A stretch of 48,920 nt of DNA from Longicatena caecimuris. Its GTDB lineage: Bacteria > Bacillota_I > Bacilli_A > Erysipelotrichales > Erysipelotrichaceae. Positions 1-48,840 of this stretch are shown here, piece by piece. Positions within the stretch are counted from its first letter, which is position 1; each line of letters opens with the position of its first letter. The translations under genes and the position numbers were made by a program. The notes beneath the pieces were generated by a model. The model had not been told where the DNA came from. It ran no database searches and saw only the letters and a list, made by a program, of their open reading frames with translations. The stretch spans positions 1 to 48,920 of the forward strand of contig NZ_SMBP01000025.1 of the NCBI RefSeq assembly GCF_004341945.1, given 5' to 3'.

Positions 1-90
1 AGAGACACGCTTTGAAATTAAAACGAACCGCCGTATACGGAACCGTACGTACGGTGGTGTGAGAGGGTGATTTATTTCACCCTACTCGAT
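1..90 (+). mobile_element. 3' end of a group II intron (domains V and VI)
   Basis: Domain V folds cleanly. A 9-bp lower helix (27-35 with 50-58) is followed by a two-base CG bulge (48-49) and a 4-bp upper helix (36-39 with 44-47) capped by GAAC. Domain VI follows: 61-70 pairs with 77-87, leaving A84 unpaired as the likely branch-point adenosine. The intron should end at the AT of 89-90. The rest of the intron, including any reverse transcriptase, lies outside the window to the left. Known of the family: domain V is the catalytic core and the domain VI bulged A makes the lariat. The intron class is not assigned here. Confidence 0.85.
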
Positions 91-2415: not shown

Positions 2416-2913
2416 ATGGTTGAACATGGGGAAGCTGTCTATACACTAGAAGAGCTGCTAGCAGAGTATGGCGATATGATTTATCGCATAGCGATGCATA
2501 ATATGCGACATAAGGCAGATGCAGAAGATATCGTTCAAGATATTTATATAAAATTGCTGCACAACATGCCTTCTTTTCAGAATGCCGAAATGCAAAAGAA
2601 ATGGATCATTCGTGTTACCATCAACACTTGTCATGATCGCTGGCGTTATTTGCGTTTACGTACTGCTTTTTCCTTAGATGAACGTTATGATGTCATGGAA
2701 GAACATAAACAAGAGTATGGCTTATTGTATTATGTCAGAGAACTTCCGGAGAAATATCGAAATGTCATTTATTTGCATTATTATGAAGGTTACAGTGTTA
2801 CGGAAATCGCCGAAATTTTACATCGTAAAGAAGCAACGATTTTAACATGGTTACATCGCGGCAGAATAAAGCTGAAAGAGCGCTATGAAGGAGGAGAGGA
2901 ACATGTGGGATGA
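2416..2913 (+). CDS. ECF-type RNA polymerase sigma factor
   Basis: A 165-residue sigma-70 family factor of the ECF type, with only regions 2 and 4. Region 2 covers about residues 15-85 (MIYRIAMHNMRHKADAEDIV, the -10 and core-binding part). Region 4 covers about 108-157 (ELPEKYRNVIYLHYYEGYSV, then the recognition helix with TILTWLHRGRIKLKE). The ribosome site AAGGAGATATAAAGG fixes the start. The next gene begins before this one ends and encodes a single-span membrane protein, the usual arrangement for a sigma factor held by a membrane anti-sigma factor. The signal it answers is unknown. Confidence 0.92.
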   Translation: MVEHGEAVYTLEELLAEYGDMIYRIAMHNMRHKADAEDIVQDIYIKLLHNMPSFQNAEMQKKWIIRVTINTCHDRWRYLRLRTAFSLDERYDVMEEHKQEYGLLYYVRELPEKYRNVIYLHYYEGYSVTEIAEILHRKEATILTWLHRGRIKLKERYEGGEEHVG

Positions 2914-17929: not shown

Positions 17930-17956
17930 TGAAATTTACTTACTACATGGACAATA

Positions 17957-18111
17957 AGATAGCACTCCTACGACTGTAGACAGTTTTATGGATGTTCTCC
18001 ATAAACCCACCACAACTTCTTGCCAAAAGTTGTAGTTCGGCGAAATTGCTTCAGCTAACTGTCAAATGCCCGCCGACTCCAATTAACTTTGTCGCTTCCG
18101 CTCCTCTATCT
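17957..18111 (-). promoter_or_regulatory. Lysine riboswitch (L-box)
   Basis: Read on the minus strand, it opens with AGATAGAGGAGCG and closes with GGAGTGCTATCT, the P1 arms of the lysine aptamer. GCTGAAGCAATTT in the middle matches the conserved GCCGAAGCAAAU block, and AGTCGGCGGGCATTTGACAG plus GGTGGGTTTATGGAG fill the other junction parts. In this class lysine binding stabilises P1 and lets the downstream terminator form. It should switch off lysA-lysC-dapA-dapB together. Confidence 0.93.
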
Positions 18112-18121
18112 GATTGGTTGT

Positions 18122-44299: not shown

Positions 44300-45118
44300 T
44301 TAAATTGTATTACTAGTTGTATTTCCAAAGTCTGTTAAGAAATTTTCAGCATTGAAATCTGCTTTTGGATAATCTTTAAAGGAAGGCATTTTGATGTCTG
44401 TCACTTGATTTGGTTTTGCAATATTCATCGTTACTTCAGCTTTCATAGGCATAGACTGTTTATCGGCAATAATATTCATATCCATATGGATAACAATAGA
44501 TTCTAACATCTTATCCTTAGCGACGACAAGATCTGCTTCATACTTATCTAATTTGGCATCAAAATTTCCATTTTGTAATTGCTTGTTTGTCTTTTTTGCA
44601 CTTTTTAAAGCATTTTGCATTGTTTTATCATTAAATACGGCATGTAAGTGATATTTACCATCTTGTTCTTTCATTGATAATTCTTTAAATTGATCCTTTG
44701 TACCAACATTTAAACTATTAGGCATCTCTTTTTCTAAGGCAGCAATTACGGGCTTTAGATTATATGCAATTTTTTCCTGATTCATCATATTCATATAAAA
44801 CATATTCTTGTTTACATATAGCTGCAAGAAATCATCCATTTTCACACCACTCATAGCCGCTCCGAAATTTGCGGCAAGTTGCAATTGTTTCTCTGCATTG
44901 TACAGCATATCTGCCGTCACTTTCATATGCATATTCATATCATCTGCATCAAATAGCATTTTCATTTTTATATCTGCACTTTTCAGCTCTTCCATCTTCT
45001 TTACCGTATCTTGATACACTTGGAATGCTTCATCACTTACTTTACTGCTACAGCCACTCATGCTAAAACCAAATGTCAGCATCAGTATTACGAGAACTAC
45101 TTTCCATCCTTTTTTCAT
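44300..45118 (-). CDS. Lipoprotein, paralogue of the next gene upstream
   Basis: A 272-residue lipoprotein with signal MKKGWKVVLVILMLTFGFSM and lipobox MSGC (Cys23). The mature part starts SSKVSDEAFQVYQDTVKKME and then shows long beta-strands in a pattern like the LolA/LppX curved-sheet fold (ADIKMKMLFDADDMNMHMKV). It is Met-rich. The 45176 product shares the plan: an A(L/Y)xxxxxAxxxMxELKSADxxxxM start, then strands around a YVN/YMD...MYMN segment. Such paralogues often sense or carry lipids or metals; unproven here. AAGGAGG precedes the ATG. Confidence 0.75.
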   Translation of the reverse strand: MKKGWKVVLVILMLTFGFSMSGCSSKVSDEAFQVYQDTVKKMEELKSADIKMKMLFDADDMNMHMKVTADMLYNAEKQLQLAANFGAAMSGVKMDDFLQLYVNKNMFYMNMMNQEKIAYNLKPVIAALEKEMPNSLNVGTKDQFKELSMKEQDGKYHLHAVFNDKTMQNALKSAKKTNKQLQNGNFDAKLDKYEADLVVAKDKMLESIVIHMDMNIIADKQSMPMKAEVTMNIAKPNQVTDIKMPSFKDYPKADFNAENFLTDFGNTTSNTI

Positions 45119-45141
45119 TTCACTAACCTCCTTTTTAAAAG

Positions 45142-45172
45142 AGGATCATTACTTAAGCAATGACCCTGTTAG
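45142..45172 (-). terminator. Intercistronic hairpin between the lipoprotein genes
   Basis: On the minus strand AGGGTCATTGC-TTAA-GTAATGATCCT folds as a stem with one mismatch region, followed by CTTTT. It probably ends part of the transcripts or protects the upstream message, giving unequal expression of the two lipoproteins. Confidence 0.55.
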
Positions 45173-45175
45173 ATG

Positions 45176-45961
45176 TTATTTTTTCTTTTCTGGATAAGTC
45201 TTTAAATCCGCTGGGAATTTAACCTGCTGGTTCTTACCAACGTTTTTAAATTCCATAGACAGTTTAATATTTGCCTCTTCTTCTTTATCATTGGCTTTCT
45301 GAGTCATGTTAAAGTTCATATCAGCTTTACGGAACTGTCCGTTTTCTAATTTAACGACTAGTTTAACTTCTTTAATGGTAGCATCTTTTACATTCGCCAC
45401 GCTATTGCCGGCTACATTTGCGTTAACAGAAGCTAAAGAATTTAAATTGTCTTTCAATTCTTTATTCAATTTTTCCTTATCGAATACTAATGTCAGTGTA
45501 TCACCTTTGATACTTGCTTCTTCTAGATATTCTTTCATTTTATCCTTAGGAATTTTTAACGTATCCTTATCTAAGGATATACTAGGAATCTGGTTCATAG
45601 TGTCTTTAATGGCTTCTTTTTCTTTCTGAAGTCCCATCATATTCGTGTAGACATAATTTGAATCCATATACATTGTTACATAGTCATCAATCTTCTGTCC
45701 GGATGCAGATAAATCAAGACCTAAAGAAAATTGTGGTTTGCTTGATTCAAAATTGTAGGTACCATCAATTCCAGCTTTCACCATTTGACCACTGGCGTTG
45801 ACTTCCATTTGGATATCATAATCCGCTGACTTCATTTCCGTTACATTCTGAATAGCAGTTTCCAGTGCATCTAAAGCTTTATCGTCAACCTTAGAACCGC
45901 TGCAAGCGCTCATAGAGAACAGAACGCCAACACTTAATAAGAGTGCTGTTAATTTTTTCAT
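45176..45961 (-). CDS. Lipoprotein, upstream paralogue of the pair
   Basis: A 261-residue lipoprotein. The signal MKKLTALLLSVGVLFSM ends at the lipobox MSAC (Cys20). After a helix (VDDKALDALETAIQNVTEM) it is beta-rich, with YDIQMEVNASG, FSLGLDLSASGQ and TLTLVFDKEKL, in keeping with a half-barrel lipid- or peptide-binding fold. It resembles the 44300 product along most of its length, so a tandem duplication is likely. GAGGGA precedes the ATG and a TATAAT (45998-46003, minus) lies upstream. No family name is certain. Confidence 0.75.
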   Translation of the reverse strand: MKKLTALLLSVGVLFSMSACSGSKVDDKALDALETAIQNVTEMKSADYDIQMEVNASGQMVKAGIDGTYNFESSKPQFSLGLDLSASGQKIDDYVTMYMDSNYVYTNMMGLQKEKEAIKDTMNQIPSISLDKDTLKIPKDKMKEYLEEASIKGDTLTLVFDKEKLNKELKDNLNSLASVNANVAGNSVANVKDATIKEVKLVVKLENGQFRKADMNFNMTQKANDKEEEANIKLSMEFKNVGKNQQVKFPADLKTYPEKKK

Positions 45962-47542: not shown

Positions 47543-47944
47543 ATGAAACGTAAATCATCAAAACAGCGCGATATGATATTAAATTATCTTAAAACGATTG
47601 ATGGACATGTAACAGCCGAAGAAGTTTTCAAGAACATGAATGAGGATGGTAATAAAATAAGTCTAGCAACCGTCTATCGTAATCTGAATATCCTGGTGGA
47701 AATGAATGAAATTAAAAAGATTGCCCATCCTGTAGAAGGATATCAGTATGATAAGACAAGTCATCCCCACTATCATCTGCATTGTGTAAGATGTGATCGT
47801 ATTCTTGATTTAGATATTCCATATATGGAAGAATGGAATCATCAAATGGAAGCACAGACAGGCCTTTTGATACGCACACATAACATGATGGCAGAAGGCA
47901 TTTGTAAAGACTGTTTAAAGAAAGAAAACAGTAGTGGTATTTAA
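47543..47944 (+). CDS. perR: PerR-type peroxide-sensing Fur-family repressor
   Basis: A 133-residue Fur-family repressor. The winged helix (1-60) contains ISLATVYRNLNILVEMNEI. The structural zinc site is Cys81, Cys84, Cys121 and Cys124. The residues of the PerR regulatory metal site are all matched: His22, Asp70, His76, His78 and Asp89, the last being the aspartate that sets PerR apart from Fur. In this family iron-catalysed oxidation of the histidines by peroxide releases DNA. AAGAAAGGGGG precedes the start. Rubrerythrin, a peroxidase, follows 47 bases downstream. Confidence 0.9.
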   Translation: MKRKSSKQRDMILNYLKTIDGHVTAEEVFKNMNEDGNKISLATVYRNLNILVEMNEIKKIAHPVEGYQYDKTSHPHYHLHCVRCDRILDLDIPYMEEWNHQMEAQTGLLIRTHNMMAEGICKDCLKKENSSGI

Positions 47945-47991: not shown

Positions 47992-48531
47992 ATGGAATTA
48001 AAAGGATCTAAAACAGAACAGAATTTGATGGCAGCATTCGCAGGAGAAAGCCAGGCACGTAACAAGTATACTTACTATGCACAGATGGCTCGTGAAGAAG
48101 GTATGGAGCAGATTGCAGATATCTTTGAAGAAACAGCACGTAACGAACAGGAACATGCAAAATTATGGTTTAAGGCTCTGCACGGTGATAAAGTACCTAC
48201 AACGGCAGTAAATCTGGAAGATGCAGCTGCTGGTGAAAACTATGAGTGGACAGATATGTATAAGAACTTTGCCGAAACAGCAAAAGCTGAAGGTTTTGCT
48301 AAAATTGCTTTCCAGATGGAGCAGGTAGCAAAAATTGAAAAACATCATGAAGAAAGATACTTGAAACTGTTGGAAAACGTGAAAAACGGTAAAGTATTTG
48401 AAAAAGAAGAACCAACAGTTTGGATCTGCGACATCTGTGGATACCGTCATGAAGGTACAGCAGCTCCTAAGGCTTGCCCAGTTTGTGGATACTCTGGAGC
48501 ACATTTCGCTGAAGAAGCAACAAACTACTAA
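47992..48531 (+). CDS. rbr: Rubrerythrin
   Basis: A 179-residue rubrerythrin that reduces hydrogen peroxide in anaerobes. The four-helix di-iron part has Glu19 ([11 protein letters not shown]), Glu52 and His55 (NEQEHAK), and later EKHHEERY. The C-terminal rubredoxin domain has two CxxC knuckles ([12 protein letters not shown] and CPVCGYSG). The very strong ribosome site TAGGAGG and codon choice suggest high expression. It is cotranscribed with perR and ends at a clear terminator. Confidence 0.97.
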
Positions 48532-48663: not shown

Positions 48664-48700
48664 ATAAAAAAAGGCCTGTCTTAAGAAAGTAAAGACAGGC
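48664..48700 (-). terminator. Second minus-strand terminator behind the candidate sRNA
   Basis: On the minus strand GCCTGTCTT (48700-48692) pairs perfectly with AAGACAGGC (48682-48674), followed by a run of seven T residues. It would end any read-through of the sRNA before it collides with rbr. Confidence 0.8.
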
Positions 48701-48713
48701 TGTTGCATATAAT

Positions 48714-48805
48714 AAAAAAGTGTTGATGCTATCAATCTGGGGGAAGATACACTGACTTGCCATATGGGTGGGGGAAGAAAAAGCAAGTCAGGCGATAGCA
48801 CCAAC
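48714..48805 (-). ncRNA. Candidate regulatory small RNA with two C-rich segments
   Basis: About 92 bases on the minus strand. The outer stem pairs GTTGGTGCTATC (48805-48794) with GATAGCATCAAC (48733-48722), and TTTTTT follows at 48719-48714. An inner perfect stem, CTGACTTGC with GCAAGTCAG (48791-48783 and 48760-48752), encloses a loop. TCTTCCCCC occurs twice, in that loop (48778-48770) and in the single-stranded 3' side (48747-48739). The predicted start coincides with the first paired base. C-rich exposed motifs resemble those that bind ribosome sites in Firmicute sRNAs. No protein frame fits. Confidence 0.65.
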
Positions 48806-48811
48806 ATGTAT

Positions 48812-48840
48812 AATATAACGTATTTGTTTATAGAAATCAA
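48812..48840 (-). promoter_or_regulatory. Promoter of the candidate sRNA
   Basis: On the minus strand TTGATT (48840-48835), a 17-bp spacer and TATATT (48817-48812). The start point would fall at about 48805. The remaining bases to 48920 show no gene. Confidence 0.65.

Follow-up and report, generated by a model that had tools for sequence, protein, structure and literature searches.

A predicted small RNA gene with conserved C-rich motifs in Longicatena caecimuris and other gut Erysipelotrichaceae

The window analysed here, a whole contig of 48,920 nucleotides from Longicatena caecimuris, carries on its minus strand a compact element with the layout of a small RNA gene (Table 1), upstream of which only about 115 bases are left before the contig end. 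All the parts listed by a first-pass annotation of this DNA, namely a promoter, an outer and an inner stem, two copies of UCUUCCCCC, a U6 terminator and a second terminator, are present in the minus-strand sequence. The promoter hexamers TTGATT (48840-48835) and TATATT (48817-48812) are separated by a spacer of 17 nt, and the outer arm GTTGGTGCTATC begins 7 bases downstream of the -10 box, in agreement with the start point that had been placed at the first base of the outer stem. This arm (48805-48794) forms 12 pairs, one of them G-U, with GATAGCATCAAC (48733-48722), which is followed directly by AC and T6 (48719-48714); the outer stem (11-12 bp) doubles as the terminator. Nested within it, the inner stem CTGACTTGC/GCAAGTCAG is perfect over 9 bp, and the first UCUUCCCCC copy (48778-48770) lies in the apical loop of 22 nt. 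The arms of the second terminator are GCCTGTC (48700-48694) and GACAGGC (48680-48674), followed by a T-run.

Table 1. Features of the RNA locus and its neighbours in the window
Feature	Position	Strand	Basis
Small RNA gene, type A, about 92 nt (predicted)	48714..48805	(-)	Fold z -7.98; covariance-model matches; blastn homologues in other genera
Sigma-70-type promoter TTGATT-N17-TATATT	48812..48840	(-)	Sequence; same hexamers, spacing and distance in relatives
Outer stem, 5' arm GTTGGTGCTATC	48794..48805	(-)	Covariation
Outer stem, 3' arm GATAGCATCAAC + AC-U6, intrinsic terminator	48714..48733	(-)	Sequence; arrangement common to all type A homologues
Inner stem, 5' arm CTGACTTGC	48783..48791	(-)	Covariation
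Inner stem, 3' arm GCAAGTCAG	48752..48760	(-)	Covariation
Near-invariant apical-loop motif UUCUUCCCCCACCCAU (C-rich motif 1)	48764..48779	(-)	Alignments of 12 and 24 homologues; all 32 loci
Second C-rich motif UCUUCCCCC, 3' of inner hairpin	48739..48747	(-)	UCNCCCC..UCCCCCCAA in nearly all homologues
Second intrinsic terminator behind the RNA, GCCTGTC...GACAGGC + T-run	48666..48700	(-)	Sequence
Rubrerythrin, convergent neighbour, outside the RNA	47992..48531	(+)	Pfam PF02915, PF21349; synteny with G014
Fur/PerR-family regulator, neighbour	47543..47944	(+)	Pfam PF01475; synteny with G014

Elsewhere on the contig, Rfam models identify a lysine riboswitch (17952-18116 (-), 85.6 bits) and, at the contig start, the 3' end of a group II intron (26-90 (+)), which is probably the reason for the contig break there. 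Two adjacent genes at 44300-45961 (-) encode lipoproteins of 261 and 272 aa with a lipobox-containing signal peptide; one matches DUF6612, and the other has only a weak, seemingly spurious match to Phage_Tail_Tip.

The predicted fold of the RNA has an energy of -33.3 kcal/mol against -13.6 +/- 2.5 in 200 shuffled sequences, none of which folds as well (z -7.98). Both UCUUCCCCC copies had been described as unpaired, and this stands for their Cs; in the predicted fold, a weak hairpin of 4 bp (AUCU/AGAU) encloses the second copy, which leaves the C-run in the loop, while the UCU portion may be paired. By itself the promoter match (9/12) is at chance level for that region. I do not consider it fortuitous, because the same TTGATT-N17-TATATT recurs at equal distance from the core in related genera, with identical hexamers, spacing and core distance in L054, L063 and L066 and near-identical ones in L057 and L065. 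A promoter is found at nearly all of the 32 homologous loci, and its orientation is also conserved. I infer that transcription starts from this promoter and stops at the outer-stem terminator.

Blastn against relatives identified clear copies outside the genus, among them L054/L009 with 78% identity. Covariance models R1 and R2, built on the inner hairpin plus the second motif from 12 and 24 sequences, scored the L. caecimuris locus at E 9.4e-12 and 1.1e-8, respectively. The covariance search across related genomes that had been suggested as a check detected the RNA in 29 (R1, E<=0.01) or 30 (R2, E<=0.1) of the 273 Erysipelotrichaceae genomes searched, the carriers spanning about 15 genera (15-16 by tally). 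One weak model match (L077) was dropped, as it lies inside a coding sequence, and when the pattern TTCCCCCACCCA was searched in the 273 genomes, its matches beyond those of the model were almost all antisense to Gly-rich coding codons. All 5 matches in 395 genomes drawn from the class fell within the same family, extending the search to another 43 genomes from the order brought no further matches, and the RNA was absent from the viral, plasmid and phage collections searched. When the genomes of 84,980 species were scanned with a DNA pattern, 14 stretches matched, 10 of which belong to the Erysipelotrichaceae or Erysipelotrichales, including Dielma fastidiosa and one MAG labelled uncultured Eubacterium. 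The remaining four, deltaproteobacterial and alphaproteobacterial matches (L038, L043, L045, L049), were rejected, their contexts being low-complexity or unrelated. Three of these (L038, L045 and L049, from Geobacter and other Deltaproteobacteria) are near-identical intergenic hairpin elements, rich in CCCTCCCCC and with inverted-repeat ends, which matched the pattern by chance and resemble a small mobile repeat. It is close to certain that a conserved RNA gene family exists; gut Erysipelotrichaceae have retained it over a long period.

The homologues occur in two forms. Type A, which comprises the L. caecimuris locus, L054, L057, L063, L065 and L066, begins at the outer stem, itself the terminator, with TTGATT-N17-TATATT-like promoters upstream. 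Type B (L052, L053, L056, L058-L062, L064, L067-L076, L078-L080, L084 and L085) has an additional 5' hairpin and a separate terminator, and its promoters are mostly TTGACA-N17. The latter form, which the cultured species Dielma fastidiosa carries, sits at a single conserved locus, next to either a peptidase C26/glutamine amidotransferase gene or a HAD gene; ytqB/ytqA are convergent there, and many genera have a NUDIX gene downstream. Of the six type A genomes, four (G006, G014, G054, G102) have the RNA near a cluster with an Mbeg1-like lipase and PadR, and in three of these four LuxS is within the stretch examined. The L. caecimuris contig and G014 have in common the downstream genes for rubrerythrin, the Fur family and IspF, the Fur-family gene adjoining the RNA in two genomes.

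Both forms are present in G175 and G176, two genomes of one genus, which carry a type B copy together with a diverged type A copy (L081/L168 and L166). These second copies are found at 2778-2832 (+) of L166 in G176 and antisense at about 3749 of L168 in G175; the L168/L081 copy has lost the second C motif, and some of the genes beside these copies recur next to type A copies in G006 and G054. At ytqA, none of the six type A genomes has a recognisable type B copy, though a degenerate type B remnant may be present there in G025 and G043. The candidate in G025 is L283, 3544-3605 (-) (17 bits, E 0.05), and that in G043 (L277, around 906, antisense to ytqA) was spotted by eye; both are below the usual threshold of the model and have a CCCC hairpin loop and a second C-run. 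The simplest history would be an old duplication, after which most genera lost one of the two copies.

The nested layout is common to all 32 loci when each sequence is folded separately, although in a flank shuffle test the outer stem fell short of significance on its own at some type B loci. Compensatory changes, named in advance by the first-pass annotation as one of the features on which its proposal should stand or fall, are present in both stems. In 22 distinct sequences, 90.5% of the inner-stem cells are paired, compared with 59.6% after shuffling and at most 43% when slid, and changes on both sides occur in 9 of 9 pairs, in an alignment that was fitted to the model and is hence biased towards structure. 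For the outer stem of type A, 98.7% of the cells are paired versus 83.8% in shuffles, with both-sided changes in 9 of 11 pairs, using a MAFFT alignment that was not fitted to the structure, the structure itself having been derived from the same sequences. The stem sequences are almost wholly different between genera, whereas UUCCCC(C)ACCCAU in the apical loop hardly varies; a version of the second motif, such as UCUCCCCCAA or UCCCCCCAA, is found in nearly all homologues. Since the stems drift and compensate while the loop hardly changes, selection acts on the loop sequence and on the shape of the scaffold.

Rfam 15, which includes RsaE, LhrC, csRNA and 6S, gave no match at the gathering threshold for the L. 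caecimuris locus and 12 homologous loci, and a permissive scan of the locus returned sub-threshold matches only, so the earlier failure to recognise a named family was justified. In the literature searched, the family is undescribed and no small RNA has been described for gut Erysipelotrichaceae; the 3161 unnamed candidate motifs from the human microbiome (PMC8040213) could include this motif. The RNA appears to represent a new family of C-rich-loop regulatory RNA, in a mechanism class that is not new.

With promoter, terminator and stems conserved across related genera, the proposal of an independent small RNA gene is borne out at the level of sequence, and on that basis the locus is a stand-alone gene for a presumed small regulatory RNA, the type A member of a new Erysipelotrichaceae family. 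Of the features expected of this functional kind, a promoter of its own, an intrinsic terminator and conserved, predicted unpaired C-rich motifs are present. By analogy with the systems discussed below, the RNA probably acts in trans, and its C-rich loop would pair with the G-rich ribosome-binding sites of particular messages. The stems would serve as a scaffold, free to change in sequence as long as pairing is kept (the retention of pairing being what the covariation shows), and on this scaffold UUCUUCCCCCACCCAU, in the apical loop, and UCUUCCCCC, next to that loop, would be displayed as single-stranded C-rich motifs. The two motifs probably seed base-pairing in trans with G-rich stretches, mostly ribosome-binding sites, of several messages, and the translation of the target messages would be blocked or altered, as with C-rich-loop RNAs in other Firmicutes.

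C-rich unpaired motifs serve target recognition in LhrC (PMC4132741), IsrR/FsrA (PMC9410917), RNAIII (PMC2837412) and RoxS/RsaE (PMC5419742). LhrC of Listeria monocytogenes resembles the present RNA in its redundant C/U-rich motifs, located in a hairpin loop and a single-stranded stretch, and in being multicopy; in LhrC these motifs pair with Shine-Dalgarno sites (PMC4132741). However, the CUCCC motifs of LhrC lie in two loops, including that of the terminator, and it occurs in five near-identical copies (PMC4132741), whereas the RNA described here has one C5-ACCC loop and one flanking motif, nested stems and one or two diverged copies; sequence, structure and taxon all differ. RoxS/RsaE of Bacillus and Staphylococcus comes close as a small trans-acting Firmicute RNA whose C-rich regions seed pairing with G-rich targets (PMC5419742), but its architecture differs, and neither its sequence nor a covariance model matches. 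IsrR of Staphylococcus and FsrA of Bacillus have conserved single-stranded C-rich regions in or beside hairpins, which discriminate G-rich Shine-Dalgarno sites in an AT-rich genome (PMC9410917). A further likeness to these two iron-sparing RNAs is the Fur-family gene and rubrerythrin adjoining the L. caecimuris RNA, but this neighbourhood is absent from most homologues, and the stems of IsrR are conserved in sequence, while those of the present RNA covary freely. RNAIII of S. aureus is a 514-nt multi-hairpin RNA of the agr system and is unrelated in sequence. Its likeness lies in a C-rich apical hairpin loop that docks onto ribosome-binding sites (PMC2837412).

Targets were surveyed in 449 kb of the L. 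caecimuris genome (a 400-kb sample and the 48,920-nt contig), with 421 sampled genes for the comparison of binding. In this genome of 36% GC, where runs of G are rare and cluster at Shine-Dalgarno sites, GGGGGA is observed 3 times in 7.3 kb of Shine-Dalgarno windows against 42 times in 898 kb of strand, about nine times denser than overall, with only three occurrences. Motif 1 is predicted to bind at -14 kcal/mol to 8.6% of translation starts versus 4.0% of coding windows, and motif 2 at -12 kcal/mol to 12.6% versus 7.4%. In the 421 sampled genes, however, the motifs bound starts no better than composition-matched scrambles. The first-pass annotation had also proposed that the RNA represses messages with GGGGGAAG-like ribosome sites and that these could be found by a search near start codons. 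This part of it is not supported in that form, as such sites are few and mostly intragenic and the best one is not conserved; the genome has 14 occurrences of TGGGGGAA that an ATG follows closely enough, almost all of them intragenic. The strongest candidate, a MATE-transporter gene with the one clear Shine-Dalgarno match, was rejected, its G5 site being restricted to the L. caecimuris genome and to one relative, whose copy is 94% identical, and missing from more distant homologues. Searches for the exact complement ATGGGTGGGGGAA in 18 genomes (<=1 mismatch) returned as exact matches almost only the RNA genes themselves, and the one-mismatch sites examined all lay within coding sequence.

Sites of TGGGGGAA..ATG or GGTGGGG..ATG type, anchored on the Shine-Dalgarno position, were mostly intragenic too, with true-looking starts at only 6 of the 60 sites examined, one of them shared by two congeneric genomes. 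At position 1500 (+) of L224 and L241 (G049, G174), a conserved membrane-protein gene (MTKHRNKMNQLMMLAAVFGFWLF...) has an unusual GGTGGGG Shine-Dalgarno sequence in both genomes; this is complementary to the CCCCACC core, making the gene a candidate target in that genus. The pattern, Shine-Dalgarno-anchored and binding surveys together found no conserved target. By analogy, pairing is likely to occur through shorter G-rich seeds.

Alternatively, though I consider this doubtful, the stems may hold up a C-rich recognition element of a hitherto unknown type, made up of the near-invariant loop and the second C-run, which binds a single specific partner. This partner would be either a protein that binds RNA or a regulatory RNA rich in G, and the RNA would act as a protein-binding or sponge RNA and not on many messages. 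The failure of the target searches to find a conserved mRNA complement would agree with this, as would the repetition of the motif in the loop and next to it, and the conservation of the apical UUCCCC(C)ACCCAU over 12-13 nt, with ACCCAU included, a length and rigidity beyond those of typical seeds. CsrA binds GGA, and the likeness of the present RNA to the Csr/Rsm RNAs is one of titration logic only. The authors of the LhrC study liken repeated loop motifs to these protein-binding RNAs (PMC4132741). However, no partner protein is linked by synteny, and the C-rich unpaired motifs of Firmicute sRNAs have repeatedly turned out to bind mRNA.

That the element is a cis-acting leader, controlling read-through at its terminator into the downstream gene, is improbable, even though at many type B loci a NUDIX gene of the same strand follows immediately after the RNA and its terminator. 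The NUDIX gene is missing in several genera that retain the RNA, which there faces ytqA or ytqB convergently; among type A loci the downstream genes vary and the next one is often convergent, and in L. caecimuris two terminators separate the RNA from the convergent rubrerythrin gene. As no downstream gene is consistently tied to the RNA, action in trans fits better than a leader. It is very improbable that the locus is a short coding gene, with the conserved loop read as FLPPPI in one frame. An open frame does run through the RNA in L. caecimuris, and LPPPI is in the same frame in a few homologues, but the frame of the core varies, several homologues lack a start or have few codons, the start codons have no Shine-Dalgarno sites, loop-stem indels disrupt the frame, and the stems evolve by compensation. 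Equally remote is a mere terminator or chance inverted repeat that only ends transcription, for although U6 closes the outer stem, the promoter, inner hairpin, two loop motifs and their order are conserved in about 15 genera, and termination does not need an invariant 13-nt loop.

Most trans-acting small RNAs are restricted to one genus. The RNA described here differs from them in spanning about 15 genera of gut Erysipelotrichaceae. If the reading with one specific partner were true, it would constitute a new two-locus regulatory RNA system of this family. With more than 30 homologues, a covariance model and two paralogous loci, there is a ready basis for finding its targets or its protein partner.
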